DNA from: Ottowia sp. SB7-C50
GTDB lineage: Bacteria; Pseudomonadota; Gammaproteobacteria; Burkholderiales; Burkholderiaceae_C
Direction of reading: 5' to 3'
Assembly: GCF_033110285.1 (NCBI RefSeq)
Contig: NZ_CP136995.1
Span: forward strand, 1,178,001-1,242,000
DNA length: 64,000 nt
Made by a program: the position numbers and the translations under genes. Shown piece after piece: positions 41,970-57,317 of the stretch. A model generated the notes under the pieces. The model saw nothing but the letters and a program-made list of their open reading frames with translations, had not been told where the DNA came from and searched no databases. Position 1 is the stretch's first letter; every line of letters begins with the position of its first letter.

Positions 41970-43097
41970 TCAGCCACGTTGCCTGTGCGTTTTGCCGGGC
42001 TTGGGGCGCTTGAACTGCCACCACGGCAGTACCTGCGTCATGGCCAGCACCTGGCCGCAGCGCGACGGTGTGTAGCCGGCCAGTTGCGCCAGCGTGGCCT
42101 GCCACGCGGGGCTGGCCAGCACTTCGCGCAGGGCGGTCACCGGCGGCGTGTCCAGCGCCGATTCCAGGCACACCAGCAGGTAGTCCTCGCGTGTGATCGG
42201 CACAAAGTCGAGCCCGCGCGCGCGGGCGGCGGCTTCGATGCCGAGGCCCGCGTCGGCTTGCCCGGCCAGGATCGCCTGCGCCACGGCGCCGTGCGATGGC
42301 TCGGTCTGCGCGTAGCCCGCAATCTGGTCGGGCCTCAGGCCCGCTTCGTGCAGCAGTTCGTCCAGCAGCACGCGGGTGCCGGAGCCGAGCGGGCGGTTGA
42401 TGAAGCGCACGTCGCCGCGTATCAGATCGCGCAGCCCGCGAATGCGGTGCGGGTTGCCCGCGCCCACCATCAGCCCCTGGGTGCGCGCCGCAAAGCCGAT
42501 CAGCTTGTGCAGGCCGGGCTGCAGCAGTGGCTTGTAGGTGCTCTCGGCCAGCGAGCCGACCGGCGCGTCGGGCCGCGTATGAAAGCCTGCCATGATGCAG
42601 CGGCCCTCGTTCAGCGCCTGGATGGCGTCCACGCTGCCCATGAAGCGGATGTCCAGGTGCAGGCTGGGGCTGTGGCCTTGCGCGCCCACGTAGTGGCGCA
42701 GCGCCGTCAGCGCGTCGTCGTGGCTGGCATGAAAGGTCAGCACGTGCGCGTTGTCATCAAAGGCGACGGCAAAGCTGCGCTCCAGTTCGGCGCGAAGGGC
42801 TTCGATCTGCGGCGCCAGCCGCGCCTGCGCCTGGCGTTCAGACCACAGCAGCTTGTCGCCGAATTCGGACAGGCGCGCGCGCTGGCCCTTTTCCCAGTGC
42901 AGCAGCGGTTGGCCCAGCTCCTGTTCCCAGCGCTTCAGTTCGCCCCACACGTGGCGGTAAGACAAGCCCAGCGCCCGCGCCGCCGACGATATCGACCCCT
43001 GCGTGCGCACCGCCTGCAGCAGGTCGAGCAGCGGGTTGCGGATCAGCGGCGCCGCGCCGTCCGCGTCCAGCGAATAGGAAAGTCCGATCTTGTACAC
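41970..43097 (-). CDS. ModE-like HTH plus periplasmic-binding-like regulator (W/Mo sensor)
   Basis: A 375-residue one-component regulator. The N-terminus is a LysR/ModE-type winged helix (LLDLLQAVRTQGSISSAARALGLSYRHVWGELKRWEQELGQPLL, residues ~23-66). The C-terminus is a cytoplasmic PBP-like domain (VLTFHASHDDALTAL, NEGRCIMAGFHT, INRPLGSGTRVLLDELL, QAILAGQADAGLGIEAAARARGLDFVPI), the fold used for molybdate/tungstate sensing. Divergent from tupB with a perfect palindrome between, so it is the likely tungstate-responsive regulator. Start GTG 43097. Confidence 0.85.
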   Translation of the reverse strand: MYKIGLSYSLDADGAAPLIRNPLLDLLQAVRTQGSISSAARALGLSYRHVWGELKRWEQELGQPLLHWEKGQRARLSEFGDKLLWSERQAQARLAPQIEALRAELERSFAVAFDDNAHVLTFHASHDDALTALRHYVGAQGHSPSLHLDIRFMGSVDAIQALNEGRCIMAGFHTRPDAPVGSLAESTYKPLLQPGLHKLIGFAARTQGLMVGAGNPHRIRGLRDLIRGDVRFINRPLGSGTRVLLDELLHEAGLRPDQIAGYAQTEPSHGAVAQAILAGQADAGLGIEAAARARGLDFVPITREDYLLVCLESALDTPPVTALREVLASPAWQATLAQLAGYTPSRCGQVLAMTQVLPWWQFKRPKPGKTHRQRG

Positions 43098-43159
43098 AGA
43101 CCCCAGTGTGCCGCATCAACGAGGCCCGCACGCGCCCGCAAGCCCAGCCAGCCGGCCCC

Positions 43160-43181
43160 GCTATGCAATCAATTGCATAGC
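43160..43181. promoter_or_regulatory. 22-bp perfect palindrome upstream of tup operon
   Basis: GCTATGCAAT - CA - ATTGCATAGC in the 135-bp gap between the W/Mo regulator and tupB. It is a likely operator of the divergent regulator. The imperfect palindrome at 51137-51158 before the aor operon has the same total length and shares CTATGCAA and CATAG. Confidence 0.8.
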
Positions 43182-43232
43182 TCCGCTTCCCTGATGCGCG
43201 GGATGGGGCAACGCGATTAGCATCGTGGGCCC

Positions 43233-43976
43233 GTGAATACCTTTGCCGACAGCGCGCGCACGGCGCTGCATCTTCTCAGCACCTTTGACGCCGGTTTGTG
43301 GACCATCGTCGGCCGCTCGCTGGCTGTGAGCGGCGTGGCCTGCGCCATCGCCTACGGCGTTGGGCTGCTGGCGGGGGCGTGGCTGGGCGTGGCGCGCTTT
43401 CGCGGCCGCGGCGCCGTGCTGACGCTGCTCAACACGCTGCTGGCGCTGCCGTCGGTGGTGGTGGGGCTGCTGGTGTACCTGGTGCTGTCGCGCAGCGGGC
43501 CGCTGGGTTTTCTGGGCTGGATGTTCAGCTTCCAGGCCATGGTGGTGGCGCAGGTGGTGCTGGTGGTGCCGGTGGTCACGGCGCTGACGCGACAGGTGGT
43601 GGAAGACGCCGACGCGCAGCACGGCGAACAACTGGCGTCGCTGGGGGCGGGCCGCTTCCTGCGCGGGCTGCTGCTGGCGTGGGACGAGCGCTACGCGCTG
43701 CTGACGGTGCTGATGGCAGCTTTTGGCCGAGCGGTGTCCGAGGTGGGTGCGGTGATGATCGTCGGCGGCAACATCGACGGCTTTACCCGCGTGATGACCA
43801 CCGCCATCGCGCTGGAGACCAGCAAGGGCGACCTGCCGCTGGCGCTGGGGCTGGGCATTGTGCTGCTGTCGGTGGTGCTGGTGCTGAACGCGCTGATCGC
43901 CGCCGTGCGCGGCTGGCGCGAGCGGGTCGACGGCGTCACGCCGCAGCCGGCGCGCGCCGTGGTGGCGGCTTCATGA
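43233..43976 (+). CDS. tupB: Tungstate ABC transporter permease
   Basis: A 247-residue inner-membrane permease with 5-6 TM segments. The ABC-permease loop EQLASLGAGRFLRGLLLAWDERYALLTVLMAAFGRAVSEVGAVMIVGGNI carries the EAA-type signature (quoted as region 125-175). TupB-type SLAVSGVACAIAYGVGLLAG and LLNTLLALPSVVVGLLVYLVLSRSGPLG also match. First gene of tupB-tupC-tupA-modA-like; all three junctions are 4-bp stop/start overlaps. Start GTG 43233. Confidence 0.9.
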   Translation: MNTFADSARTALHLLSTFDAGLWTIVGRSLAVSGVACAIAYGVGLLAGAWLGVARFRGRGAVLTLLNTLLALPSVVVGLLVYLVLSRSGPLGFLGWMFSFQAMVVAQVVLVVPVVTALTRQVVEDADAQHGEQLASLGAGRFLRGLLLAWDERYALLTVLMAAFGRAVSEVGAVMIVGGNIDGFTRVMTTAIALETSKGDLPLALGLGIVLLSVVLVLNALIAAVRGWRERVDGVTPQPARAVVAAS

Positions 43977-44779
43977 GCGCGCCCGATTCGTCCTTGACGC
44001 TGCCCGGCGCCGCCTTGCGCGCCGCGGCCCAGCAGGCGCAGCAATGCCGGGCCAGCGCGCCGGCGCTGATCGCGCTGCGCGATGTGGGCGTGCGCTTTGG
44101 GGCGGTGCAGGCGCTGCGGAACGTGAGCCTGGACATCGCCGCCGGCGACAGCGTGGCGCTGATCGGCGGCAACGGCTGCGGCAAGAGCACGCTGCTGCGC
44201 GTGGTGCACGGCCTGCTGGGTCCGACCGAAGGTCAGGTGCAGGCGCCGCCGCGCGTGGCGCAGGCGATGCTGTTTCAGCGGCCCTGGATGCTGCGCACCA
44301 CGGTGGCGCGCAACATCGCCATCGGCCTGTGGCTGCGTGGCGTGCGCTGGGCCGACGCCATGGCGCGCGCCCTGCAGGCGCTGGAGCGCGTGCAACTGGC
44401 GCACCTGGCCGAGCGCAGCGCGCGCGGCCTGTCGGGCGGGCAGCAGCAGCGGCTGGCGCTGGCGCGCGCGTGGGCGCAGCGCCCGCAACTGCTGCTGCTG
44501 GACGAGCCCACGGCCAGCCTGGACCCGCACGCCAAGCACGAGGTCGAGGCGCTGATGCACGAATTTGCGCATGCGCCGGTGGCAGCGGGCGAGCCACCGC
44601 TGACCATGCTGTTCGCCAGCCACAACCTGGGCCAGGTCAAGCGGCTGGCGCGGCGCGTGATCTACCTGGAGCAAGGGCAGGTGCTGGCCGACTTGCCCGT
44701 GGCCGATTTCTTCAACCGTGAAATGCTGCGCAGCGTGTCGCCGCAGGCCGATCTGTTTCTGAAAGGGGAATTGCTGTGA
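43973..44779 (+). CDS. tupC: Tungstate ABC transporter ATPase
   Basis: A 268-residue ATP-binding subunit. Walker A is GGNGCGKSTLLRVV, the Q-loop is AMLFQRPWML, the signature is LSGGQQQRLALARAWA, Walker B is LLLLDEPTASLDP, and the switch His is in LFASHNLGQVKR. It has an unusual ~30-residue Ala/Gln-rich N-terminal leader before the first beta strand (ALIALRDVGVRFG). It energises TupB. Its ATG overlaps the tupB stop (ATGA). Confidence 0.9.
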   Translation: MSAPDSSLTLPGAALRAAAQQAQQCRASAPALIALRDVGVRFGAVQALRNVSLDIAAGDSVALIGGNGCGKSTLLRVVHGLLGPTEGQVQAPPRVAQAMLFQRPWMLRTTVARNIAIGLWLRGVRWADAMARALQALERVQLAHLAERSARGLSGGQQQRLALARAWAQRPQLLLLDEPTASLDPHAKHEVEALMHEFAHAPVAAGEPPLTMLFASHNLGQVKRLARRVIYLEQGQVLADLPVADFFNREMLRSVSPQADLFLKGELL

Positions 44780-45603
44780 GTGTTTTCAAGTCTTTCTGGT
44801 CTTATACGGCCGTCAAATATGCGGCGACAGCTATTTTGTTTGTAGCATCCTCGGCGGTGTCGGCGCAGTCGATCGTGATGGCATCGACCACGTCGACCGA
44901 GCAGTCGGGGCTGTTTCCGTACCTGCTGCCCGAATTCAAGAAGGCCACCGGCATCGACGTCAAGGTGGTCGCGCTGGGTACCGGGCAGGCGCTCGACATG
45001 GCGCGCCGCGGCGACGCCGACGTGGTGTTCGTGCACGACGAAAAGGCCGAGGACAAATTCGTCGCCGACGGCTTTGGCGTCAAGCGCTATCCGGTCATGT
45101 ACAACGACTTCATCCTGGTCGGCCCCAAGAACGACCCGGCTGGCGCAAAGGGCAAGGACATCGTCGAGGGCCTGAAGAAGCTGGCCGCCGGCAATGCGGC
45201 GTTTGTCTCGCGCGGCGACAAGAGCGGCACGCACGCGGCCGAACTGCGCTTCTGGGAACAGGCGGGCCTGAAGGATGCCAAGGGCAGCGGCTACCGCGAA
45301 TGCGGCTGCGGCATGGGCCCGGCGCTGAACATGGCCGCATCCACCGGCGCCTACGTGCTGGCCGACCGCGGCACCTGGCTCAACTTCAAGAACCGCGCCG
45401 ACTTAGGGGTTCTGGTCGAAGGCGACAAGCGCCTGTTCAACCAGTACGGCGTGATGGTGGTCAACCCCGCCAGGCACCCGCAGGTCAAGCAGGCCGAGGC
45501 GCAGAAGTTCGTCGACTGGGTCACCTCAGCCGCCGGGCAGGGCGTGATCGCCGGCTACAAGATCGGCGGCGAACAGCTGTTCTTCCCGAATGCCGCCAAA
45601 TGA
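44776..45603 (+). CDS. tupA: Tungstate-binding protein
   Basis: A 275-residue periplasmic receptor. The mature N-terminus has the TupA signature TTST at residues 38-41 (MASTTSTEQSGLF), followed by DVVFVHDEKAEDKFVADG, SRGDKSGTHAAELRFWEQ (oxyanion-binding Arg) and GYRECGCGMGPALNMAA. These features distinguish it from ModA. The signal peptide core (AATAILFVASS) is encoded by the dispersed repeat (44808-44846). Start GTG 44776, overlapping the tupC stop. High-affinity tungstate capture fits the W-AOR operon downstream. Confidence 0.92.
   Translation: MSVFKSFWSYTAVKYAATAILFVASSAVSAQSIVMASTTSTEQSGLFPYLLPEFKKATGIDVKVVALGTGQALDMARRGDADVVFVHDEKAEDKFVADGFGVKRYPVMYNDFILVGPKNDPAGAKGKDIVEGLKKLAAGNAAFVSRGDKSGTHAAELRFWEQAGLKDAKGSGYRECGCGMGPALNMAASTGAYVLADRGTWLNFKNRADLGVLVEGDKRLFNQYGVMVVNPARHPQVKQAEAQKFVDWVTSAAGQGVIAGYKIGGEQLFFPNAAK
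44808..44846 (+). repeat. Dispersed repeat inside tupA signal peptide
   Basis: GGCCGTC..GCGGCGACAGCTATTTTGTTTGTAGC matches the right half of the dispersed element. It is read in frame to supply the hydrophobic core of the signal peptide. Confidence 0.6.
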
Positions 45604-46439
45604 GCGCGCGCACCTTGGGCGCTGCGGCTTGGCCGGCCGCCTTGCTGTGCGTCGCATTGAGCGCGTGCGCGCCCATGGCCCGATCTAACGCGCCCAGCGC
45701 CGAGCCGGTGCGCGTGTACGCCGCCGGCAGCCTGCGCGAAGCCTTGACGGCCATCGCGCGCGACCACGAGGCGCGCACCGGGCAGAAGGTGGCGCTGACC
45801 TTCGGCGCGTCCGGCTTGCTGCGCGAGCGCATCGAGCAGGGCGAGCGCGCCGAAGTGTTCGCCTCGGCCGATACCGACCACCCGCAGCGTCTGGCGCGCG
45901 CGGGCGCGTGGCAGGCGCCGGTCGTATTCACCCGCAACCAGCTGTGCGCGCTGACCAGCGACCGGGTCAGCACCACGCCCGCCACGCTGCTGGCCACCTT
46001 GCTCGACCCGCAGGTGCGCGTCGGCACGTCCACGCCCCAGGCCGACCCGTCTGGCGATTACGCCTGGGTGCTGTTTCGCCGCGCCGACGCGCTGCAACCG
46101 GGCGCCTATGCCACGCTCGACGCCAAGGCGCTGAAGCTGACCGGCGGCGCCACGTCGCCGCAAGCACCCGCCGGCCGCGGCACCTATGCGTGGCTGATGG
46201 ACGAGGGGCGCGCCGACGTGTTCCTGACCTACTGCACCAACGCCGTCGCCAGCCAGAAGGAAGTGCCGCGGCTGAAGGTGGTGCAATTGCCACCTGCGCT
46301 TCAGGTAGGTGCGGACTACGGCCTGGGCCTGCGCCGTGATACGCGCCCGGCCGCGCAGGCCTTTGCGCGCGCGCTGCGCGAGGCGCCGGCGCAGCAGGTG
46401 TTGCGCGGCTTGGGTTTTGGTGCGTTGACGGGCGGTTGA
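45600..46439 (+). CDS. ModA-like binding lipoprotein
   Basis: A 279-residue putative lipoprotein: the lipobox LCVALSAC places a Cys anchor near residue 23. The mature chain has ModA features (YAAGSLREALTAIARDHEARTG, FGASGLLRERIEQGERAEVFASAD, GRGTYAWLMDEGRADVFLTYCTNA). It differs clearly from the second ModA at 48412. It is the fourth gene of the tup operon (ATGA overlap with tupA) and has no permease of its own; it may share TupBC or ModBC, or act as a sensor. Its oxyanion (molybdate, tungstate or another) is unknown. Confidence 0.8.
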   Translation: MSARTLGAAAWPAALLCVALSACAPMARSNAPSAEPVRVYAAGSLREALTAIARDHEARTGQKVALTFGASGLLRERIEQGERAEVFASADTDHPQRLARAGAWQAPVVFTRNQLCALTSDRVSTTPATLLATLLDPQVRVGTSTPQADPSGDYAWVLFRRADALQPGAYATLDAKALKLTGGATSPQAPAGRGTYAWLMDEGRADVFLTYCTNAVASQKEVPRLKVVQLPPALQVGADYGLGLRRDTRPAAQAFARALREAPAQQVLRGLGFGALTGG

Positions 46440-46469
46440 GGGGCGATGAGTTGATAGGCGCCGTCCGCC

Positions 46470-47648
46470 TCAATCCAGCACCGCCACGCCCTTGATCTGC
46501 GCGAACACGCGCTGGCCCGGCGCCAGGGCCAGTGCGTCGGCCGACTTACGGGTCACGCGCGCCAGCAGCGTGGTCCCGCCCGCGTCCAGCGCCACCAGGG
46601 CTTGCGCGGTGCCATCGGCCTGAACGGATTGCACGCGGGCGGGCAGCACGTTGAGGATGCTGGTGTCGGCCGCTGCGCTCAACGTCAGGCTGACGTCGCG
46701 CGCCTGCACGCGCAGGCGCAGGCGCTCGCCCACGGCGCGTTCGCGGGCGCCGCTGGCGGGCACGCAGTGCAGCGCGCCGCCGCCAAAACGCACCGTCAGC
46801 AGGCCGTAGGTGCGGTCCACCGATTCGAGCACGCCTTCGATCAGCGCGCCGGCCGCGTCGCCCTGCGTCAGCGACAGGTCCAGGCGCGTCATCATCTGCG
46901 GCGTGGGGCCGCTGGCCACCACGCGTCCGGCCTGCAGCAGCAGCAGGTGATCGGCCAGGCGCGCCACCTCGTCCAGCGAGTGCGTGACGTACAGCATGGG
47001 AATGTGCAGTTCGCGCGCCAGGCGTTCGAACCAGGGCAGCACCTCGGCCTTGCGCGCGGCGTCCAGCGCAGCCAACGGTTCGTCCAGCAACAGCAGGCGC
47101 GGGCTGGTGGCCAGCGCGCGCGCAATCGCCACGCGCTGGCGCTCGCCGCCCGACAGCCGCGCCGGGCGCCGACCGAGCAGGTCGCGGATGCCGAGCAGGT
47201 CGATGGCGTGGTCCAGCGCGATGCGGCGGTCGGCGGGCGGCACACGCTTCAGGCCGAAGTCCAGGTTGCCTTGCACGCTCAGGTGGTCGAACAGGCTGGC
47301 TTCCTGAAACACCATGCCCAGCGGGCGCTGGTGCGTCGGTCGCCACACGTGTGCGGCATCGTCCTGCCACACCTCGCCGCCCACCACGACACGCCCCGGC
47401 GACGGCCGCACCAGCCCCGCCAGCGCGCGCAGCAGGGTGGTCTTGCCGCAGCCCGACGGGCCGAAGAGGGCGGTGACGCCGCTGCCCGGCAGGTGCACAT
47501 CCACGTCCAGCGTGAAGGCGGGGCCGTGGCACACGCGCGCCTGGATGGCGATGGCGTCAGGTTGCGCGGTTTCGGGGTAAAAATCGCTGCCAGCGCTCTC
47601 TGGATAAGCGCAAGCAGCTATCGATTCGGAAGCGTTGTCGGTATTCAA
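46470..47648 (-). CDS. modC: Molybdate ABC transporter ATPase
   Basis: A 392-residue ATPase. Walker A is [17 protein letters not shown], the Q-loop is MVFQEASLF, the signature is [16 protein letters not shown], Walker B is [12 protein letters not shown], and the switch is [14 protein letters not shown]. The C-terminal Mop/TOBE domain ([27 protein letters not shown], quoted as region ~325-392) binds molybdate in ModC. Start TTG 47648 overlaps the modB stop. The first ~30 residues ([19 protein letters not shown]) come from an in-frame dispersed repeat; the conserved domain begins only at [11 protein letters not shown]. Confidence 0.9.
47577..47634 (+). repeat. Dispersed repeat inside modC N-terminus
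   Basis: AAAAATCGCTGCC-AGCGCTCTCTGGATAAGCGC-AAGCAGCTAT-CGATTCGGAAGC, a full-length copy lying antisense to modC. It encodes its N-terminal extension in frame. Confidence 0.75.
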
Positions 47649-48320
47649 GGCGCACCCCGCCGCGCTTGCACCGCATGCAGCGCCAGCAGCACGCCAAAGC
47701 TGAACACCAGCATGCCGCCGGCCAGCCAGTGCGCCTGCGTGTATTCCAGCGCCTCCACGTGGTCGTAAATTTGCACCGAGATCACGCGCGTCTGTCCGGG
47801 GATGTTGCCGCCGATCATCAGCACCACGCCGAACTCGCCCAGCGTGTGCGCAAAGCCCATCACCGCGCCGGTGATGTAGCCCGGCCGCGCCAGCGGCAGC
47901 GCCACGTGCCAGAAGGCGTCCAGCGGGCCGGCCCGCAGCGTGGCGGCGGCTTCCAGCGGGCGCGGGCCGATGCCTTCGAACGCGTTGACCAGCGGCTGCA
48001 CCACGAAGGGCAGCGAATAGATGATCGAGCCGATCAGCAGCCCCCCCGAAGCTGAACGACAGCAGCCCCCAACCCAGCGATTGCGTCAGTTGGCCCAGCG
48101 GCCCGTTCGGCCCCATGGCCACCAGCAGATAAAAGCCCAGCACCGAAGGCGGCAGCACCAGCGGCAGCGCCACCAGCGCGCGCACCGGCACGCGCCAGCG
48201 CGACCGCCCGCGCGCCAGCCACCAGGCGAGCGGCGTGCCCCCCAACAGCAGCATCACGGTCGTCGCCAGCGCCAGTTCGATGGACAGGCGCACGGCGGCA
48301 AGGCTGGTGGCGTCGAGCAT
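47645..48320 (-). pseudogene. modB: Molybdate ABC transporter permease, +1 frameshift
   Basis: The N-terminal half ([56 protein letters not shown]) and the C-terminal half ([53 protein letters not shown]) are in different frames. The shift is in the C run 48041-48047: six instead of seven bases restores [17 protein letters not shown] and a 224-residue ModB of normal length. The typical EAA loop and all TM segments are then present. Because modA and modC are intact, a sequencing error is likely, but a true mutation cannot be excluded. Confidence 0.85.
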
Positions 48321-48346
48321 CACGGGCAGGCAATCGGGGGGGCGGA

Positions 48347-48403
48347 TTGCTATGACAAACATAGCTTCATCCGCTGGTGCAGAACGGGCTGGCGGCTGAT
48401 TGG
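48347..48403 (-). repeat. Dispersed repeat copy between modA and modB, degenerate
   Basis: TTGCTATGACAAACATAGCTTCATCCGCTGG..GGCGGCTGATT is the reverse-oriented, decayed element. It fills most of the 91-bp modA-modB gap. Confidence 0.5.
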
Positions 48404-48411
48404 TTTGCGCA

Positions 48412-49191
48412 TCACGGCACCGCATAACCATGGTCGCGGATCAGCGCCTTCGCCTTGGGCGAGCGCAGCAAATCCATCCACGATTGGGCCGCCGGGTTGG
48501 CCTGTGCGCGTTGGAGGATGACCGCGTCCTGGACGATCGGCGCATGCAGCCGGGCGGGCACGATCCACCACGAGCCGCCGCGGATCACGCCCGCGTCCTG
48601 AATCTGCGACAGCGCCACGAAGCCCAGTTCGGCATTGCCGGAGGCGACGAAGTGGTAGGTCTGTCCGATGCTTTCGCCCGTGACGAGTCTGGGTTGCAAA
48701 GCGGCGTAAACGCCCAGCTGGTTCATCGCTTCGACGGCCGCCGCGCCATAGGGCGCGAGCTTGGGGTTGGCAATGGCCAGCTTGTGAAACTGACCGATTT
48801 TCAGCACCGCCCCCTGCGGGTCGACCACGCCCGGCCTGGCCGACCACAGCGCCAGTTGCCCCACGGCGTAGGTGAAGCGCGAGCCGGGCACGATGGCGCC
48901 TTCTTTTTCGAGCAGGGCAGGGCGCTCGTCGTCGGCCGCCAGCAGCACGTCGAACGGCGCGCCGTGCCTGATCTGCGTGTAGAAGGCGCCGGTGGCGCCA
49001 AACGTCAGGCGGGCGGTGTGGCCGGTGGTTTTCTCGAACATCGCCGCCAGCACCTTGGCCGGCGCGGTGAAGTTGGCGGCGACGGCGATGTGCACCTGCT
49101 CGGCAGACGCCGCTGCGCACGCCGTGATCGACCCGATCACGGTCAGCCAGGTGGCGACGATGCGGCGCGTGCGCGAAGCGGCTTGAAGCAT
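48412..49191 (-). CDS. modA: Molybdate-binding protein
   Basis: A 259-residue periplasmic receptor. A signal peptide (RRIVATWLTVIGSITACAAASAE) precedes the ModA fold: HIAVAANFTAPAKVLAAMFEKTTGH, GATGAFYTQIRHGAPFDVLLAADDERP, FVALSQIQDAGVIRGGSWWIVP. It binds molybdate for ModBC. Start ATG 49191. A 25-bp ModE-type palindrome lies at 49214-49238, immediately upstream, between it and the divergent modE, so repression by Mo-ModE is expected. Confidence 0.92.
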   Translation of the reverse strand: MLQAASRTRRIVATWLTVIGSITACAAASAEQVHIAVAANFTAPAKVLAAMFEKTTGHTARLTFGATGAFYTQIRHGAPFDVLLAADDERPALLEKEGAIVPGSRFTYAVGQLALWSARPGVVDPQGAVLKIGQFHKLAIANPKLAPYGAAAVEAMNQLGVYAALQPRLVTGESIGQTYHFVASGNAELGFVALSQIQDAGVIRGGSWWIVPARLHAPIVQDAVILQRAQANPAAQSWMDLLRSPKAKALIRDHGYAVP

Positions 49192-49213
49192 GTGCGGAAT
49201 GTGTTGAAGCGGG

Positions 49214-49238
49214 TCGCTATTCCGTTTGAGAATAGCGA
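49214..49238. promoter_or_regulatory. ModE-type operator
   Basis: A perfect inverted repeat TCGCTATTC - 7 bp - GAATAGCGA between the divergent modA and modE genes. The CGCTAT..ATAGCG architecture resembles ModE boxes. The inner GCTAT..ATAGC is also found in the tup palindrome at 43160. Confidence 0.85.
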
Positions 49239-49303
49239 TTCTAGCCCGCTTGCGCTTCGGCGTGCGGGCGATCCGGTACACCCGCTGCGCGAGAATCACC
49301 GCC

Positions 49304-50065
49304 ATGGTCAAGCCGCTGATCCCTTCTCGCGCCCTGGTCGATGCGCAGACCGACAAGCGCATCGAGATCCTGCAGTTGGTGGGGCTGCACGGCTCCATCT
49401 CCGAAGCGGCGCGCGTGGCGGGCGTCAGCTACAAGGCGGCCTGGCAGGCGATTCACACGCTCAGCAACCTGGCCGGGCAGGCGCTGGTCGATTCCAGCGT
49501 GGGCGGCACGGGCGGCGGCGGCGCACGGCTGACCGCCGCCGGCACGCAATTGCTGGACGCCGCGGCGCAGATGGAGGCGGCGCGGCGCGAGGTGCTGGCG
49601 CGCTTCGACGGGTCGCCCGCCCGCGCGCTGGCCGGCCCGCGCACCAGCATGCGCAACCTGATGCCGTGCCGCGTGCTGCGGCTCGAAAGCGCCGATGCGC
49701 GCGACCCTCTGGTGCGGGTGGTGCTGGCATTGGCGCAAGGGGTGGAGCTGGCCTCGTCCATCACGCGCGAAAGCGCCGAGCTGCTGAACCTGGCGCCCGG
49801 CGCCGACGTGCTGGCGCTGTGCAAGGCCACGGCGGTGCGGGTGCAGGCGGCGTCAGCGGCCAGCCCCGCAGTGCCTGCCACCCATGCGCTGGATGGCCGC
49901 GTGCTGCGCGTGGCGCGCGGGGTGCAGCGCGACGAAGTGGTCGTCACCTTGCCCGGCGATATTCAGCTGGTGGGCTTTGCGGCGCGGCCAAATGCGCTGC
50001 GGGCGGGCAGCCGGGCCGTGGCGTGGGTGGAAGACAGCGCCGTGGTGCTGGCGCTGGCGGATTGA
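49304..50065 (+). CDS. modE: Molybdate-responsive regulator ModE
   Basis: A 253-residue regulator: an N-terminal winged helix (DKRIEILQLVGLHGSISEAARVAGVSYKAAWQAIHTL, residues ~17-54) and two C-terminal Mop/TOBE modules (SMRNLMPCRVLRLE and ALDGRVLRVARGVQRDEVVVTLPG) that bind molybdate or tungstate at a dimer interface. It is divergent from modABC with the palindrome at 49214-49238 between. GAGAAT ends 7 nt before the ATG without a ribosome binding site, a leaderless candidate. Confidence 0.92.
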   Translation: MVKPLIPSRALVDAQTDKRIEILQLVGLHGSISEAARVAGVSYKAAWQAIHTLSNLAGQALVDSSVGGTGGGGARLTAAGTQLLDAAAQMEAARREVLARFDGSPARALAGPRTSMRNLMPCRVLRLESADARDPLVRVVLALAQGVELASSITRESAELLNLAPGADVLALCKATAVRVQAASAASPAVPATHALDGRVLRVARGVQRDEVVVTLPGDIQLVGFAARPNALRAGSRAVAWVEDSAVVLALAD

Positions 50066-50104
50066 ACCGAACAGCGACCGCGCGGCGCGGCCGAATTTTC
50101 AATC

Positions 50105-50160
50105 AAAATCGGCTCCAGCGCGCTTCCAAAGGGCGCTGACAGCTATCAAAAACAAAGCAA
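50105..50160 (+). repeat. AGCGCTT dispersed repeat copy
   Basis: AAAATCGGCTCC-AGCGCGCTTCC-AAAGGGCGCTGACAGCTAT-CAAAAACAAAGC. It sits between the convergent modE and PhyH-family genes. Confidence 0.75.
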
Positions 50161-50162
50161 TC

Positions 50163-51002
50163 TCAAGCGGCTTGCCACAGCACCGGAAACAGCGCATCGT
50201 GCATTGGCGCACCCGCCGGCAAGCGATCCGCCAGGCCCGGAAAGGGCGGTGACGTGACCCAGTTGCGCGGCGCATGCGTGATGTCGTCACCCAGCATGCG
50301 CACCGAGAACACCCGCCGCCGCGTGTCGCCGTCCACCCCGCCGGCCGCATGCAGGCTGAGCATGTGGAAGGCGATCACGTCGCCCGGCTCCACCGCCCAG
50401 CCCAGGATGGAAAAGCGGTCGCGCACCGCCTCGATGTCGGGCAGGTCGGCCAGGCTGCCTTCGGGGAACCACTTGGCCTGGTGGTCCATGAAGCTGCGCG
50501 GCATCAGCCACGGGCCCTGGTGCGATCCGGCGACGAATTCCAGCGTGGAATGGCGCCGTACCGGGTCGACCGGAATCCAGAAGCTGATGTTCTGCCGCCC
50601 GTCGATGTTGTAGTAGGGCTGGTCCTGGTGCCATGGCGTCTTCTGGCGCGTGCCGGGCTCCTTGGTCAGCATGTGGTCGTGGTACAGGCGCACGCTTTGG
50701 CTTTGCATCAGCAGGCCGGCGGCGGCGGCCAGCGGCGAATCGAAGATGACGCGGCGGTAGGCGTCGTTGTCCTGCCAGCAGCAGAAGTCCTCGATGAAGA
50801 AGCCGGGGTCGTCAGGGCGGCTGGCGACCTTGGCGCGCGGGCTGGGCGCGGCGATGTTGGCGTCGATGCCACTGCGCAGCAGGGCGACTTCGTCGGCGTT
50901 CAGCAGGCCGCGCAGGCACACGGCGCCGTCGCGGGCGAAAGCATCGGTCAATGCCGGGGTGACCACGGCTTGCGCACGGCGCGTGCGGTCTAAAGCGTTC
51001 AT
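50163..51002 (-). CDS. Phytanoyl-CoA dioxygenase (PhyH) family protein
   Basis: A 279-residue Fe(II)/2-oxoglutarate-dependent oxygenase. The H-x-D of the metal triad is in TPWHQDQPYYNIDG, with the distal His in AFHMLSLHAAGG and a 2OG-binding Arg in RRRVFSVRMLGDD. VRLYHDHMLTKEPGTRQKT is also family-typical. The substrate is unknown. It is divergent from the aor operon, but a link to tungsten metabolism is not evident. CACAAT ends 7 nt before the ATG: leaderless candidate. Start ATG 51002. Confidence 0.85.
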   Translation of the reverse strand: MNALDRTRRAQAVVTPALTDAFARDGAVCLRGLLNADEVALLRSGIDANIAAPSPRAKVASRPDDPGFFIEDFCCWQDNDAYRRVIFDSPLAAAAGLLMQSQSVRLYHDHMLTKEPGTRQKTPWHQDQPYYNIDGRQNISFWIPVDPVRRHSTLEFVAGSHQGPWLMPRSFMDHQAKWFPEGSLADLPDIEAVRDRFSILGWAVEPGDVIAFHMLSLHAAGGVDGDTRRRVFSVRMLGDDITHAPRNWVTSPPFPGLADRLPAGAPMHDALFPVLWQAA

Positions 51003-51089
51003 GGCGCCCATTGTGCAGCGGCGCGCACGCACGCTGGCGGGCGGGCAGCTGTCTCAGTTTGAGAATTTCAGCGCGCCGCCCATACCCGA

Positions 51090-51105
51090 CTAGGGAATAC
51101 CCTAG
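51090..51105. promoter_or_regulatory. Palindrome CTAGGG-AATA-CCCTAG before aor operon
   Basis: A perfect 6-bp inverted repeat with a 4-bp spacer, 92 bp before the aorA start and separate from the tup-like palindrome 32 bp downstream. It looks like a second operator; I cannot name its regulator. Confidence 0.55.
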
Positions 51106-51136
51106 ACCGCTATGTCCCTCGTCATTGCCCACAATT

Positions 51137-51158
51137 CCTATGCAACTTCATTCATAGG
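51137..51158. promoter_or_regulatory. Imperfect 22-bp tup-like palindrome before aor operon
   Basis: CCTATG - 10 bp - CATAGG, 22 bp overall. It is 39 bp upstream of the aorA start. It matches the tup palindrome (43160-43181) in length, in CTATGCAA of the left arm and in CATAG of the right arm. A candidate site for the same W/Mo-responsive regulator. Confidence 0.6.
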
Positions 51159-51196
51159 CAAGGTGCGGCGCGCCCGCACATAAAAAGGAGACCTTC

Positions 51197-51682
51197 ATGC
51201 AAAAGGTGTTGCACATCAACGCCGACAAGTGCACCGGCTGTCTGCAATGCGAGATGGCGTGTTCTTACGAGCATTACGGCGTGTACGCCACGGCCAAGTC
51301 GCGCATCAAGGTGTTCGACTTCCACACCACCGGCAAGAAGGTGCCCTACACCTGCACGCAGTGCGACGAGGCCTGGTGCCTGCACGCCTGCCCGGTCGAA
51401 GCCATCACGGTGGACAAGGGCACGGGCGCCAAGATCGTGTCGGACGCCACCTGCGTGGGCTGCAAGGTCTGCACCATCGCCTGCCCGTTCGGCACCATCA
51501 ACTACGTGGCCGAAACCGGCAAGGTGCAGAAGTGCGACCTGTGCTACGACCGCGCCGAGGGCCCGGCCTGCGTGGAAGCCTGCCCCACCGCCGCCATCAC
51601 CTACATCGACGCCAACTGGACGGGCCTGGACCGCATGAAGCAGTGGGCGGACAAGCTGGGCAATCAGCCTTCCGCCGCTTGA
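51197..51682 (+). CDS. aorA: Ferredoxin-like subunit of tungsten aldehyde oxidoreductase
   Basis: A 161-residue polyferredoxin with four [4Fe-4S] Cys sets: CTGCLQCEMAC (residues 13-23), CTQCDEAWCLHACP, CVGCKVCTIACPFG and CDLCYDRAEGPACVEACP. It relays electrons between the W-AOR large subunit and the FAD subunit. In Aromatoleum aromaticum, as I recall, the AorA subunit can polymerise into a wire-like chain. First gene of the aor operon; AAAAGGAG precedes the ATG. Confidence 0.88.
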   Translation: MQKVLHINADKCTGCLQCEMACSYEHYGVYATAKSRIKVFDFHTTGKKVPYTCTQCDEAWCLHACPVEAITVDKGTGAKIVSDATCVGCKVCTIACPFGTINYVAETGKVQKCDLCYDRAEGPACVEACPTAAITYIDANWTGLDRMKQWADKLGNQPSAA

Positions 51683-51683
51683 C

Positions 51684-51716
51684 GCATCAGCGCAGGCAGC
51701 TATCAATCAAGGAGCA
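51684..51716 (+). repeat. Partial dispersed repeat supplying aorB ribosome binding site
   Basis: ATCAGCGCAGGCAGCTATCAATCAAGGAGC: the right half of the element fills the aorA-aorB gap. The AAGGAG ribosome binding site of aorB is at its edge. Confidence 0.6.
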
Positions 51717-51722
51717 CACATC

Positions 51723-53570
51723 ATGTCCTGGGCTGGCAAACTTCTCCGCGTCAACCTGACCGAAGGCACCGTCAAATCCGAACCGCTGAACATGGACTGG
51801 GCGCGCCAGTACATCGGCTCGCGCGGGCTCGGCACCAAGTACCTCACCAGCGAGATCGATCCCAAGGTCGATCCGCTGTCGGCCGACAACAAGATCATCT
51901 GGGCCACCGGGCCGCTGACGGGCACCATGGCCTCGACCGGCGGGCGCTACACCGTCATCACCAAGGGCCCGCTCACCGGCGCCATTGCCTGCTCCAACTC
52001 GGGCGGCTACTGGGGCGCCGAACTGAAGATGGCCGGCTGGGACATGGTGATCTTCGAAGGCAAGAGCCCGAAGCCCGTGTACCTGTACATCAACGACGAC
52101 ACCGCCGAGCTGCGCGACGCCGCCGACATCTGGGGCAAGAGCGTTTGGGAGACCGAGGAGCACCTCAAGAAGACCCTGCAAGACCCGCTGACGCGCGTGT
52201 CCAGCATCGGCAAGGCGGGCGAAAACCAGGTGCTGTTTGCGGCCGTGGTGAACGACCTGCACCGCGCCGCCGGCCGTTCCGGCGTGGGCGCCGTGATGGG
52301 CAGCAAGAACCTCAAGGCCATCGCGGTGCGCGGCACCAAGGGCGTGGGCAACATCCGCGACCCGAAAGCCTTCATGGCCGAGACCTTTGCGCGCAAGAAG
52401 ATCCTGCACGAGCACCCGGTCACCGGCCAGGGCCTGCCCACGTTTGGCACACAGGTGCTGATGAACGTGATCAACGAAGTGGGCGCGCTGCCCACGCGCA
52501 ACCACCGCGACGTGCAGTTCGAAGGCGCCAAGGACATTTCCGCCGAAGCCATGGCCACGCCGCGCAAGACGGACGGCAAGAAGCACCTGGTGACCAACCA
52601 GGCCTGCTTTGGCTGCACCATCGCCTGCGGGCGCATCAGCAAGATCGACGAGACGCACTTCACGGTGCAGACCAAGCCGCAGTACTGGGGCGCGAGTGGG
52701 GGCCTTGAATACGAAGCCGCCTGGGCGCTGGGCGCCGCCAACGGCGTAAACGACCTGGAGGCGTTGCAATACGTCAACCTGCTGTGCAACGAGGAAGGCA
52801 TCGACCCCATCAGCTTTGGCGCCACCGTGGGCCTGGTGATGGAGCTGTACGAAATGGGTGTGCTGACCAAGGAGCAGATCGGCATCGAGGCGCCGTTCGG
52901 CTCGGCCCAGGCGCTGGCTTTTCTGGCGGAAGAAACCGTGAACGGCCGCGGCTTTGGCAAGGAGATCGGCACCGGCTCCAAGCGCCTGGCGGCCAAGTAC
53001 GGGCACCCCGATCTGTCGATGTCGTCCAAGGGCCAGGAATTCCCGGCCTACGACGGCCGCGCGATCCAGGGCATTGGCCTGGCCTACGCCACCAGCAACC
53101 GCGGCGGCTGCCACCTGCGCGGCTACACCATTGCATCGGAAGTGCTGGGCATTCCGGTCAAGACCGAACCCACGGCGACCGAGGGCAAGCCCGAGTTGGT
53201 GAAAGCCTTCCAGGACGCCACGGCGGCGTTCGACTCGTCCGGCCTGTGCATCTTCACCACCTTCGCCTGGAGCCTGCCCGACCTGGCGCCGCAACTGGCG
53301 GCCGCGTGCGACGAAGGCTACACGGTGGAAGAGGTCGAGAAGATTGGCGAGCGCATCTGGAACATGGAGCGCGAGTTCAACAACGCCGCCGGCTTTACCA
53401 AGGCCGACGACAGCCTGCCCAAGCGCCTGAAGACGGAAGCGGCAAAGTCGGGCGGCTCGAAAGGCGCCGTCAGCCATGTGGACGAGATGCTGCCCAAGTA
53501 CTACGAAGTGCGCGGCTGGGACGCGGAAGGCCGGCCGACGCAGGCCACGCGCGAGCGGCTGGGGCTTTGA
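51723..53570 (+). CDS. aorB: Tungsten-dependent aldehyde:ferredoxin oxidoreductase
   Basis: A 615-residue AOR-family enzyme, the W-bis-pyranopterin subunit oxidising aldehydes to acids. The N-terminal domain has GKLLRVNLTEGTVKSEPL, RGLGTKYL, ATGPLTGT and CSNSGGYWGAELKMAGWD. The pterin-binding motif is GRSGVGAVMGSKNLKAIAV (about 184-202). The [4Fe-4S] ligands are C295-x2-C298-x3-C302 and C509 (SGLCIFT), in the classic AOR arrangement. It is closest in layout to the Aromatoleum aromaticum subfamily (AorABC). The tup operon nearby indicates that tungsten rather than Mo is the native metal (inference). Confidence 0.93.
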   Translation: MSWAGKLLRVNLTEGTVKSEPLNMDWARQYIGSRGLGTKYLTSEIDPKVDPLSADNKIIWATGPLTGTMASTGGRYTVITKGPLTGAIACSNSGGYWGAELKMAGWDMVIFEGKSPKPVYLYINDDTAELRDAADIWGKSVWETEEHLKKTLQDPLTRVSSIGKAGENQVLFAAVVNDLHRAAGRSGVGAVMGSKNLKAIAVRGTKGVGNIRDPKAFMAETFARKKILHEHPVTGQGLPTFGTQVLMNVINEVGALPTRNHRDVQFEGAKDISAEAMATPRKTDGKKHLVTNQACFGCTIACGRISKIDETHFTVQTKPQYWGASGGLEYEAAWALGAANGVNDLEALQYVNLLCNEEGIDPISFGATVGLVMELYEMGVLTKEQIGIEAPFGSAQALAFLAEETVNGRGFGKEIGTGSKRLAAKYGHPDLSMSSKGQEFPAYDGRAIQGIGLAYATSNRGGCHLRGYTIASEVLGIPVKTEPTATEGKPELVKAFQDATAAFDSSGLCIFTTFAWSLPDLAPQLAAACDEGYTVEEVEKIGERIWNMEREFNNAAGFTKADDSLPKRLKTEAAKSGGSKGAVSHVDEMLPKYYEVRGWDAEGRPTQATRERLGL

Positions 53571-53589
53571 GGGCTGACTTCCCTCTGGG

Positions 53590-53698
53590 ACAGAGCCTGC
53601 CCCGCTAACGCAGGGTAGGGTGAGGGCCGAGCACGTTCGCGCCGGTCGGCGCTTTCACCCTCAGCCCAACCCTCTGCCGCGCGGAAGCGGGCGTTTAG
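53590..53698. repeat. CCCAACCCTC-type repeat between aorB and aorC
   Basis: GCAGGGTAGGGTGAGGGCC and, inverted, TTTCACCCTCAGCCCAACCCTC: the two arms can pair. The same family occurs near 15751 and 33340. Together with the next element it makes a 200-bp aorB-aorC gap, much longer than other junctions of the operon. Confidence 0.6.
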
Positions 53699-53699
53699 A

Positions 53700-53757
53700 G
53701 AAAAAGGCTGCCACCGCGCTCCAGATAAGCGCTGGCAGCTATTATTTAAATAGCAAT
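53700..53757 (+). repeat. AGCGCTT dispersed repeat copy
   Basis: AAAAAGGCTGCCACCGCGCTCC-AGATAAGCGCTGGCAGCTAT-TATTTAAATAGC, 13 bp before the aorC ATG. One of the best-preserved copies. Confidence 0.8.
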
Positions 53758-53770
53758 CATCGCCGCCACC

Positions 53771-55051
53771 ATGCACCACCTCATCCTCGGCGCCGGTCCG
53801 GCCGGCGTCATCGCGGCGGAGACGATCCGCAAGCACGCGCCTGGCGACCAGATCACCCTCGTGGGCGACGAGCGAGAGCCGCCTTATTCACGCATGGCGA
53901 TCCCCTACCTGCTGGTCGGCGACATCGGCGAGCCCGGCACTTATCTGCGCAAGGGCGCGGACCACTTCGCCCAGCAGCGCATCGAGCTGATCCACGCACA
54001 GGCGACGAAGGTCGATGCGCAGGGCAAGACGGTCACGCTGGACAACGGGCAGACGCTGGCCTTCGACCGCCTGCTCATCGCCACCGGCTCGCACCCCGTG
54101 CGGCCGCCGATTCCGGGGCTGGACCTGCCCGGCGTCGACACCTGCTGGACGCTGCAGGATGCGCGCGACATCGCCACCCGCGCCGTGAAGGGCGCGCGCG
54201 TGCTGCAGATGGGCGCAGGCTTCATCGGCTGCATCATCATGGAAGCGCTGCAAAAGCGCGGCGTGCAACTCAGCGTGGTCGAGATGGGCGACCGCATGGT
54301 GCCGCGCATGATGGGCGAGGTGGCCGGCAACATGATCCGCGACTGGTGCGAGCGCCAGGGCGTGCGCGTGTACACCGGCCACAAGGTCGAGCGCATTGAA
54401 AAAGGCGAGGGCGACGCGCTGAAGGTGCACCTGTCGGGCGGCACCGTGCTCGATGCCGATCTGGTCATCAGTGCCACCGGCGTGCGCCCGGCCATCGGCT
54501 TTCTGGAGGGCAGCGGCGTCCAGTGCCTGCTGGGCGTGCTGACCGACGACTGCATGCAGACCAACGTGCCCGGCATCTATGCGGCGGGCGATTGCGCCGA
54601 GGCGTTCGACCCGTTCACCGGCAAGACCATCGTCAGCGCCATCCAGCCCAATGCGGCCGATCAGGCGCGCGTGGCCGCGCTCAACATGGTGGGGCAGCGC
54701 GCGGCGCTTAAGCTGGTCACGCAGATCAACGTGCTCGACACGCTGGGCCTCATTTCCACCAGCTTCGGCAACTGGCAGGGCGTGCCCGGTGGCGAACACG
54801 CCGAGCTGACCGACACGGCGGCGTGCCGGCACCTCAGCCTGCAGTTCAAGGACGACGTGCTGGTCGGCTGCAACTCGGTCGGCCTGACCGACCATGTGGG
54901 CGTGATGCGCGGCCTGGTCGAAGGTCAGATCCGCCTGGGCGACTGGAAAGACCGCCTGCTGAAAGACCCGATGCGGCTGACCGAGGCCTACCTGGCCCGT
55001 GCGCAAGGCCAGGGCGACTGGAGCGGCGCGGCCGACGCGCGGCGACGTTGA
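53771..55051 (+). CDS. aorC: FAD/NAD(H) subunit of tungsten aldehyde oxidoreductase
   Basis: A 426-residue pyridine-nucleotide-disulfide-family flavoprotein without the redox-active Cys pair. FAD motif is LILGAGPAGVIAAETI (residues 4-19), NAD(P) motif VLQMGAGFIGCIIMEAL, and the second FAD motif GIYAAGDCAEAFDPF. YSRMAIPYLLVGD and ATGSHPVRPPIPGL also fit. It passes electrons from the AorA ferredoxin to NAD+. It lacks a ribosome binding site; a dispersed repeat abuts the start. Third gene of the aor operon. Confidence 0.88.
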   Translation: MHHLILGAGPAGVIAAETIRKHAPGDQITLVGDEREPPYSRMAIPYLLVGDIGEPGTYLRKGADHFAQQRIELIHAQATKVDAQGKTVTLDNGQTLAFDRLLIATGSHPVRPPIPGLDLPGVDTCWTLQDARDIATRAVKGARVLQMGAGFIGCIIMEALQKRGVQLSVVEMGDRMVPRMMGEVAGNMIRDWCERQGVRVYTGHKVERIEKGEGDALKVHLSGGTVLDADLVISATGVRPAIGFLEGSGVQCLLGVLTDDCMQTNVPGIYAAGDCAEAFDPFTGKTIVSAIQPNAADQARVAALNMVGQRAALKLVTQINVLDTLGLISTSFGNWQGVPGGEHAELTDTAACRHLSLQFKDDVLVGCNSVGLTDHVGVMRGLVEGQIRLGDWKDRLLKDPMRLTEAYLARAQGQGDWSGAADARRR

Positions 55052-55062
55052 CGGCAGCGGCG

Positions 55063-55317
55063 ATGCGCATCACCTTCAAGCTGTTCGCCATGCTGGCCGA
55101 TTACCTGCCGCCCGAAACGCGGCCAGGCAATGAGATGACGCTCGACGTGGCGGCCGACGCCACCATCCAGCAGATCATCGCGCCCTTCAATCTGCCGCCC
55201 ACGCTGGTGCATCTGGTGCTGGTCAACGGCGAGTACATTCCGCCCGACGCGCGCGCCACCACCACGCTGCAGGAAGGCGACGCGCTGGCGATCTGGCCGC
55301 CCATTGCAGGCGGTTGA
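55063..55317 (+). CDS. aorD: MoaD/ThiS-like sulfur carrier of aor operon
   Basis: An 84-residue ubiquitin-fold protein: RITFKLFAMLADYLPP at the start and a C-terminal di-glycine (AIWPPIAGG) needed for thiocarboxylation. It is expected to supply sulfur for the pterin dithiolene of the W cofactor, as a dedicated MoaD paralogue. It is in the position of aorD in the Aromatoleum operon (recalled, not checked). Start ATG 55063, 11 bp after aorC. Confidence 0.85.
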   Translation: MRITFKLFAMLADYLPPETRPGNEMTLDVAADATIQQIIAPFNLPPTLVHLVLVNGEYIPPDARATTTLQEGDALAIWPPIAGG

Positions 55318-55625
55318 TGGCGCCAGGGCAGGTACCCGACGCGTTCGAGCGCCAGATGAGCGCCTCCGCCGCCGAATGGGAGCGGCTGCTGTGCGGCGCG
55401 CTGGTCAATCACGATTGGCGCCGTCTGGACGACGGTGGGGCCGAGGTCACGTTGACCGAGGGCGGCACGCTGACGCTGCGCTGGCACGCGGTCGAGCCGC
55501 ATCGCATCGCGCTGCTGAAGCTGCCCGCGCTGCGTGTGGTGTTCGAATTCCAGGGCGTGGCGCCGCCCGAGCGCGCATCGTTCATGCGCCACCTTGATCT
55601 GTATACGCACCGGGGTGGCGGTTGA
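55317..55625 (+). CDS. Small uncharacterised protein of aor operon
   Basis: A 102-residue protein that I do not recognise. Its ATG overlaps the MoaD-like stop (TGATG), so it is coupled to cofactor genes. The sequence is mixed alpha/beta without TM segments, signal peptide or Cys pairs: an N-terminal helix (VPDAFERQMSASAAEWERLLCGAL), then beta strands (EVTLTEGGTLTLRWHAVEPHRIALLKLPALRVVFEFQGV, region ~43-82), then an amphipathic helix (PPERASFMRHLDLYTHRGGG) with a Gly-rich tail. It could help W-cofactor insertion or AOR assembly (inference from position only). Confidence 0.7.
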   Translation: MAPGQVPDAFERQMSASAAEWERLLCGALVNHDWRRLDDGGAEVTLTEGGTLTLRWHAVEPHRIALLKLPALRVVFEFQGVAPPERASFMRHLDLYTHRGGG

Positions 55626-55647
55626 CGGCCACGCACCGCGGTGGACG

Positions 55648-56028
55648 TCAGTGACCCATGACCGCCGCCGCTGTCTTGATGCCCAGCACCGTGAGCGCCA
55701 GTGACCCGGCCAGGTGCAGCGCGGCGATGCCCAGCGCCTGCACGTAGCGCTGCGCCATCAGCATCTCGACCACCTCGGCACTGAAGCTGGAGAACGTGGT
55801 CAGCGCGCCCAGAAAGCCGGTGACCAGCAACAGTCGCCACGCAGGGTCGATGTCGGCATGGTGCTGGAACACCGCCACGCACAGGCCCACGAGATAACCG
55901 CCGATCAGGTTGGCCGCCAGCGTGCCCCAAGGCATCCACGCGCCGGCATGGTTCAACGCCAGCCCCAGCCGCCAGCGCAGCAACGCGCCGGCGCAGGCAC
56001 CGAGGCAGATGGCGAAGACGGCGTGCAT
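55648..56028 (-). CDS. crcB: Fluoride channel CrcB/Fluc
   Basis: A 126-residue inner-membrane protein with four TM helices that forms an antiparallel dual-topology dimer and exports fluoride. Visible: GACAGALLRWRLGLALN, WGTLAANLIGGYLVGLCVAV (conserved Asn) and LLVTGFLGALTTFSSFSAEVVEML (TTFSSF motif with Na+/F- site Phe and Ser/Thr). No fluoride riboswitch is visible upstream. Start ATG 56028. Confidence 0.93.
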   Translation of the reverse strand: MHAVFAICLGACAGALLRWRLGLALNHAGAWMPWGTLAANLIGGYLVGLCVAVFQHHADIDPAWRLLLVTGFLGALTTFSSFSAEVVEMLMAQRYVQALGIAALHLAGSLALTVLGIKTAAAVMGH

Positions 56029-56064
56029 GGATCTGTCGAACTGAACGGGGGCGCTGCTAAAGCC

Positions 56065-56157
56065 CGTCATTCCCGCGCCGGTGGGAATCCATGTCTGCCA
56101 TCACCGTATGCCGTTCTTTGGCCAGGCGGCTGGATTCCCGCCTGCGCGGGAATGGCG
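56065..56157. repeat. Inverted repeat, GTCATTCCCGCG family
   Basis: CGTCATTCCCGCGCCGGTGGGAATCCA faces, after a short spacer, TGGATTCCCGCCTGCGCGGGAATGG (quoted in part). A second member of the family at 5552-5660. It lies between crcB and rdgC. Confidence 0.7.
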
Positions 56158-56217
56158 GCGAAACGCGCTGCGCCGGGCAAATGAGCGTGGCATGCATCAC
56201 GCGACGGTTCAGCTCGG

Positions 56218-57231: not shown

Positions 57232-57317
57232 GGCGATCCTTTATGACACGACGGCAAAATCGGGCCGCCATCTTAGTGGATCGCCGGGCGCGCGTTGCGG
57301 TGGCGCGTCGATGCGCG

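Follow-up and report, generated by a model that had tools for sequence, protein, structure and literature searches.

The 64,000-nucleotide stretch analyzed here (the window) covers positions 1178001-1242000 of the 3.61-Mb single-contig genome of Ottowia sp. SB7-C50. Its block at 41970-55625 is probably a locus for the acquisition, sensing, and use of tungsten, in which a regulator composed of a helix-turn-helix (HTH) head and a periplasmic binding protein (PBP)-like domain would read one palindrome shared by the tungstate import genes (tup) and the genes of an aldehyde oxidoreductase (aor), with ModE reading a box of its own. Comparisons of open reading frames (ORFs), families, and structures confirmed that the gene content is real. 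The HTH-PBP regulator (reverse strand) is followed by TupB, TupC, TupA, and a second ModA-type protein (forward), by ModC, modB, and ModA (reverse), and then by ModE (forward); after ModE come a PhyH-type gene (reverse) and AorA to AorE (forward, 51197-55625). The locus is in outline as originally predicted, ordinary in its enzyme, and more tightly tied together by a shared control site.

A palindrome shared by tup and aor

Side-by-side comparison of upstream regions drew attention to a palindrome that reads CTATGCAATCAATTGCATAG between the regulator gene and tupB (43161-43180) and CTATGCAACTTCATTCATAG in the aorA leader (51138-51157), each located by pattern match and each a candidate operator. 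These are the only two exact sites for CTATGNA-N6-TNCATAG in the whole genome, where no site has one mismatch and 15 have two; a reversed control pattern gives 18 sites within two mismatches. The window itself contains four strand-wise matches, where 0.33 are expected, and four were reached by 1 of 100 shuffles. At a threshold of 11 of 14 letters, 84/114 related loci have the site before aorA and 42/46 have it before tupB (numbers that include duplicates of some genomes), compared with 2/89 control upstream regions. The exact site occurs in 56 of the 399 genomes of the family (Burkholderiaceae_C), as against one for the reversed control pattern, and 41 of its 68 occurrences lie at aor or tup, or 42 once the split aorB of G008 (contig 374) is counted. 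It is retained in G010, where aor and tup occupy different contigs. Since one palindrome precedes both tupB and aorA, import and use would come under a single sensor.

The HTH-PBP regulator

The protein encoded at 41970-43097 (reverse strand) bears out the extra sensor of the original prediction, carrying PF12727 (E 1.2e-59) beside PF00126 (E 2e-11), that is, a PBP-like effector domain with a ModE/LysR-type helix-turn-helix; its model has a predicted local distance difference test (pLDDT) score of 87. To relate it to the palindrome, orthologues were taken at E ≤1e-95 (161/399 genomes), a cut chosen by inspection where the scores show a gap, and a site was called present at 11 or more of 14 letters, with one aorA locus per genome. 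On this basis, the site follows the regulator gene across the family: it precedes aorA in 67/91 genomes with the regulator and 2/17 without it, and both of the latter are only 70-74% complete. Counted by genus, the figures are 33/44 (median) with the regulator and 1/8 (best) without it (Fisher p 0.0015). Three genera are of mixed composition; in g106 both owners reach 11 and the non-owner 8, and in g59 the scores are 11 and 9 for the owners and 8 for the non-owner. Before tupB the site is present in 20/21 loci with the regulator versus 2/18 without it; here the 20 regulator-less loci were hand-picked from the TupA list, 4 of 43 loci were dropped for want of TupB, and moving G323, counted as regulator-less although its locus shows a regulator at 57%, changes the result to 21/22 versus 1/17. 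In other families of the order, the site was found in 6/8 genomes having a relative at E ≤1e-85, 0/7 lacking one, and 1/7 with a weaker relative; this cut was chosen after the scores had been seen, the seven weaker-relative genomes stand outside the comparison of 6/8 with 0/7, one of the eight (G428) was scored on the wrong upstream stretch, and the G470 locus is without AorA.

An alternative is that ModE, or another general regulator, reads the palindrome and that the HTH-PBP protein is a mere neighbor of tup. Regulator and operator could travel with tup without acting upon each other, and the half-site appears to resemble sites of the ModE type. The heads of the two proteins are related, that of the regulator matching TIGR00637 at 40.7 bits, below the cut-off. 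Unlike ModE, the regulator possesses a PBP-like effector domain, gave no TOBE match, and would have a different DNA site. A ModE match (E 1e-10) is missing from 8 of 13 regulator genomes tested besides G000; seven of these eight have aor, and six of the seven keep the site, from which it follows that ModE is dispensable for it. The promoters of modA and modE possess another palindrome, CGCTATTC-N7-GAATAGCG (49215-49237 in the window, near the starts of both genes), which motif comparison across loci recovered at 11 or more of 12 letters in 10/14 loci (two of the ten from one genome); among these 14 the box is not seen in L072, L032, L113, and L101, and none has a TATGCA site above 9/14 letters. 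The palindrome is, moreover, missing from 16 of the 18 tup loci taken as regulator-less. ModE was accordingly rejected as the reader of the TATGCA site, on the strength of the ModE-less keepers and of the different box at modA/modE, and the general-regulator explanation as a whole is improbable.

Proposed control and its likeness to TaoR

Under the reading favored here, namely a tungsten locus with its own sensor, the regulator, divergent from tupB, would read CTATGCA-N6-TNCATAG before tupB and before aorA, and ModE would serve the molybdate genes through its separate box. TupBCA would import tungstate, AorD and AorE would help to build the tungsten cofactor, and AorABC would convert aldehydes to acids, with the electrons travelling through the clusters of AorA to the FAD and NAD+ of AorC. 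As to direction, we think it most likely that the metal-free regulator represses aor and activates tup, and that tungstate, as the presumed ligand, releases it. Repression is proposed for aor because there the site directly follows an ACAAT element, close to a presumed transcription start, and activation for tup because there it precedes the probable promoter.

The sequences thus point to a tungsten regulon whose sensor is TaoR-like and has a DNA-binding domain of the ModE/LysR type. A PBP-like effector beside an HTH, and linkage to aor and tungstate transport, are features held in common with TaoR (Rajeev et al. 2019), so far as its citation in PMC11980592 conveys them. The parts of PMC11980592 available use HTH-17 for TaoR-like proteins, whereas the head found here is HTH_1 and ModE-type. 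The regulator thus does not carry a TaoR-type head, HTH-17 or excisionase-like. Should the proposed direction be true, the outcome would equal that ascribed to TaoR, reached with a different DNA-binding head. TaoR is said to have an excisionase-type head and, when metal-free, to leave import on and the enzyme off. The literature searched, with subscription papers, including the TaoR paper, outside its scope, describes neither this operator nor a ModE-headed tungsten regulator.

The effector might instead be molybdate, or oxyanions in general, making the block a joint molybdenum and tungsten island. ModABC, ModE, and the second ModA-type protein share the block, and fold comparison placed the effector-domain model closest to phosphate-, molybdate-, and tungstate-binding proteins, the first two ranking beside or above the third. 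Formate dehydrogenases, a further candidate target described below, can contain molybdenum or tungsten. The palindrome is, however, found at tup and aor and is absent from modA/modE, and AorB groups with the tungsten enzyme 8c0z. We regard such an island as unlikely, though as the most serious of the competing explanations.

It is poorly understood how bacteria with enzymes of both kinds, molybdenum and tungsten, settle on the metal to take up and the enzyme to produce. With its 20-bp site, its regulator gene, and as many as three kinds of target, the present system would allow this question to be tested directly in a group that is widespread. Control by tungsten might also explain why, according to the available part of PMC6365974, the amount of the Aromatoleum enzyme is unreliable from batch to batch.

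Formate dehydrogenase and other sites

Away from aor and tup lie 27 of the 68 exact sites, one of which (G008, contig 374) was reassigned to aor; 12 of the 27 regions were examined. Two genomes with no AorB match, G254 and G070, have an exact site (L347 3998-4017; L348 4104-4123) before a small ORF with a twin-arginine translocation (Tat) signal and the gene for the alpha subunit of a formate dehydrogenase (TIGR01591 E ~1e-132, below cut-off), with a TorD-like gene adjoining; the distance from site to ORF is 24 bp in G254. The genome of the window contains a like operon, with an 11/14 site at 2855918-2855937, 23 bp before the small ORF. A wider proposal can be advanced tentatively from these data: Burkholderiales may possess their own tungsten regulon, based on the ModE/LysR-headed HTH-PBP sensor and CTATGCA-N6-TNCATAG, which would couple import to the aldehyde oxidoreductase and, in some species, to a Tat-exported formate dehydrogenase. 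The metal-free sensor would keep import on and the enzymes off, and species without aor would keep the switch for formate dehydrogenase.

The remaining examined regions yielded an exact site between moeA and a gene for a small subunit of the xanthine dehydrogenase family (L353 2475-2494, in G336). No tungsten-connected target was seen at nine sites (L349, L350, L351, L352, L354, L355, L356, L357, and L359), whose neighbors were compared in part with family libraries.

That acquisition and use are linked within the block is borne out by the shared tup and aor site. The module had also been called self-contained, which is too strong, because both moeA genes of the genome and the formate dehydrogenase operon, with its weak site, are situated elsewhere. 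The two MoeA_N genes lie outside the block, and PF00384 has seven matches in the genome.

Several observations weigh against a tungsten locus under its own sensor. TupA and TupB miss the NCBI curated equivalog cut-offs (NF041772, 236 of 400 bits; NF041773, 169 of 320 bits), and the TupA cut-off is passed in none of the 399 family genomes, for which reason it may not fit the Burkholderiaceae_C type. In the fold comparison of the effector domain, phosphate binders rank above tungstate binders, and the matches also include effector domains of LysR proteins and a TRAP protein. Fewer than 11 letters are matched before aorA in 24/91 regulator genomes; in the mixed genus g24 the sole regulator owner scores 9 and four non-owners 8; and G015, of the same genus as the window, has the regulator and tup with no site before tupB. 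Since the genomes are related, the counts of regulator and site overstate their independence. A -10-like ACAAT accompanies 24/69 sites. Lastly, the formate dehydrogenase site in the window's genome belongs to the 15 sites with two mismatches, a number not above that of the control pattern, so that its position alone speaks for it.

The AorABC enzyme

By sequence, AorABC is closely related to PDB 8c0z, the tungsten aldehyde oxidoreductase from Aromatoleum aromaticum. Residues 1-615 of AorB (51723-53570) align with residues 1-615 of chain A at 1041.5 bits, which upholds its assignment to the tungsten type; AorA (51197-51682; 16 Cys) matches chain C (E 2.4e-72), and AorC (53771-55051) matches chain E (E 9.3e-160). 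The five-gene operon with a four-cluster ferredoxin, the cluster ligands C295, C298, C302, and C509, and an NAD-linked flavoprotein is therefore much as predicted. AorB also keeps R75, N92, G94, R181, A182, D361, and D504. By the definition given in the available part of PMC13328260, a Class III tungsten oxidoreductase (WOR) has a large subunit with both aldehyde ferredoxin oxidoreductase domains, a small subunit with four [4Fe-4S] clusters, and an FAD subunit for NAD(P); the present protein set has PF02730 and PF01314 above cut-off in AorB, the 16 Cys of AorA, and the matches to chains C and E.

The three subunits are thus common to this locus, to the Aromatoleum AorABC(DE) system, and to Class III WOR, as far as PMC6365974, PMC10413684, and PMC13328260 describe them. 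The aorABCDE order, the cluster and cofactor ligands, and the NAD-linked flavoprotein are likewise shared with A. aromaticum. The differences are two: residues 508 and 510 of AorB are conservatively changed (L/I here, I/V in Aromatoleum), and aor is here linked to tup and mod, neither of which is mentioned in the available part of PMC6365974 (where "tup" occurs 0 times). The same part of that paper already has in print the enzyme of Acidovorax sp. JS42 and the aorABCDE operon.

AorD and AorE

AorD (55063-55317, forward strand) is a carrier of the ThiS/MoaD type (PF02597, E 6.2e-9 on a longer frame) ending in GG, an end found in 75/75 relatives. The small protein AorE (55317-55625), known from its ORF, relatives, and structure model, had been left as an unknown; to this can now be added its RGGG end, which is present in all 73 relatives whose ORF was taken. 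The available part of PMC6365974 describes both proteins as MoaD-like. The AorE model has a mean pLDDT of 90 and a predicted order of E-H-E-E-E-E-H. In Foldseek, the top-ranking structure is 1v8c, a MoaD-related protein of Thermus (E 2.4e-4, 23% identity), which we take to be a MoaD domain fused to DUF1952, that is, AorD plus AorE in one chain. DUF1952 is weakly matched by 1 of 44 AorE relatives (E 0.06), none of the 44 matches a ThiS/MoaD family, and the AorE profile reaches a best E of only 0.19 against PDB sequences. In VIA-align, the list is headed by KA1-type domains and 1v8c is absent from the best 50 matches. Unlike the Thermus protein, AorE is a gene of its own with its own RGGG end. 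The modeled likeness to 1v8c and DUF1952 is to be treated as a lead and not as proof; with its invariant end, AorE is a defined target for studies of tungsten cofactor assembly.

The Tup and Mod import genes

The tungstate importer is encoded on the forward strand by TupB (permease; 43233-43976), TupC (43973-44779, start approximate), which matches ABC ATPase families and sits between TupB and TupA, and TupA (44776-45603). TupA bears the expected TTST signature and resembles solved tungstate-binding proteins (Geobacter 3lr1, E 1.3e-76), so that a TupABC importer stands, its curated cut-offs notwithstanding. A second ModA-type binding protein (45600-46439, forward; NF002917 295.5 bits, over the cut-off of 264) follows tupA without a modB or modC of its own, and occurs also in L035, L050, L052, L081, L108, and L138; it might share TupBC.

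The molybdate importer is less intact than had been supposed. ModC (46470-47645; TIGR02142 434.7 bits) and ModA (48412-49305, start approximate; TIGR01256 219 bits), both over their cut-offs, lie on the reverse strand on either side of modB (47645-48321, reverse), which shifts frame at a run of seven G residues (48041-48047), its two halves reading well in two frames. The frame is intact in 26/26 related loci (two from one genome), in which the gap between the matched halves is 6 bases in 25 loci and 30 in one. An intact ModABC was therefore rejected, as was a ModB-ModC fusion suggested by a 653-residue ORF (46470-48431), which is a product of the frame change. The change may be a sequencing error, a mutation, or slippage. 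ModE (49304-50065, forward) has the HTH_1 and TOBE domains that define it and misses the curated cut-offs of TIGR00637 (78.7 bits) and NF007957. ModC, ModA, and ModE of the predicted complete set thus hold, and modB as sequenced does not; similarly, of the two importers thought to be linked to the enzyme, tup is tied to aor by the common site, whereas the molybdate importer is frameshifted and has another box.

Distribution and neighborhood in relatives

AorB is found in 115/399 genomes and 50/141 genera of the family, two of the 115 having distant members only; of the 113 with the proper type, 108 were usable and 5 had broken contigs. Because enzyme and linkage are common in the family, and an Acidovorax enzyme appears in the available part of PMC6365974, the find in Comamonadaceae is not the surprise it was taken for. 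A literature search on tungsten aldehyde oxidoreductase in Comamonadaceae returned no paper. A TupA match accompanies AorB in 106/113 genomes and occurs in 130/286 others (Fisher p 1.4e-21). Where sequence suffices in 80 loci, AorA, AorC, and AorD are each present in 76/76 and AorE in 72/74.

Among the 56 loci whose upstream sequence extends to 10 kb, tup or mod lies upstream of aor in 31, and TupA is present within that distance in 24, always on the same strand (24/24); the predicted linkage is thus not rare. With TupA positions taken from matches listed down to E 1e-65, at least 22 of the family genomes have TupA within 10 kb of AorB, 21 of them upstream, among the matches listed. In L105 and L052, tup is downstream of aor. 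According to the available part of PMC13197769, tungsten operons often have tungstate transporters collocated with them; according to that of PMC13328260, TupABC occurs in virtually all microbes with class I-IV enzymes.

Downstream of aor, crcB or rdgC is found in 29/61 loci. The full order, including the second ModA and crcB-rdgC, is repeated in Ottowia beijingensis (L108), and similar orders are seen in L081, L113, L114, L138, and L141. The closest relative found, a metagenome-assembled genome record (L072; AorB 99%), is collinear over 43245-61610, except that the second ModA is missing and that some 2 kb are added at modA-modE and again at aorE-crcB. This collinearity, together with the linkage in 31/56 loci, is more than chance. 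It might still be supposed that the gene order reflects chance or shared ancestry and that tup and aor are under no joint control, seeing that 25/56 loci have no tup or mod found in the 10 kb upstream and that aor occurs in none of the five other genomes of the genus. This is very improbable in view of the operator common to tup and aor, the co-occurrence of AorB and TupA, and the constant strand of tup.

The absence of aor from its sister genomes suggests loss in two of them. In G230, modE and crcB-rdgC are found without the intervening genes of the window, and in G146 modE, PhyH, and crcB-rdgC are found without aor; in G015, crcB-rdgC is located apart from modE. Loci of Comamonadaceae 2FH, Hydrogenophaga, and Ottowia carry aor between modE and crcB or rdgC, from which we surmise that G146 and G230 lost it. 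Recent gain within the genus was rejected on account of this position in L074, L081, L097, and L108.

Minor features

The PhyH-type dioxygenase gene (50163-51032, reverse strand) has a weak NF045813 match (7e-6), its label having been given by eye from the sequence, and stands outside the usual unit; like the second ModA-type protein, it was missed in the original prediction. It is upstream of aor in 1/56 loci; both the window and L072 have it between modE and aorA, and in G146 (L255 7321-8160) it adjoins modE. ARAGORN and Rfam revealed a single tRNA, distant from the block.

The aorA upstream region contains two further conserved elements, and a sigma-54-type motif was found there in 0/111 relatives. 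A palindrome T[CT][TG]CA-N3-5-TGAGA (51052-51064 in the window) is present in 70/111 relatives, in most cases some 84 bp before the operator. The AGGGTWW element (51090-51105) occurs in 71/111, against 8/111 shuffled, and mostly stands 44 bp before the operator. These two additional palindromes are probably sites of other aor regulators. Genomes without the HTH-PBP regulator have the palindromes CTATGCAAAGCTTTGCATAG and CTATGCAACCNGTTGCATAG (in L320, L335, L340 and L321, L359), which are perhaps sites of other factors.

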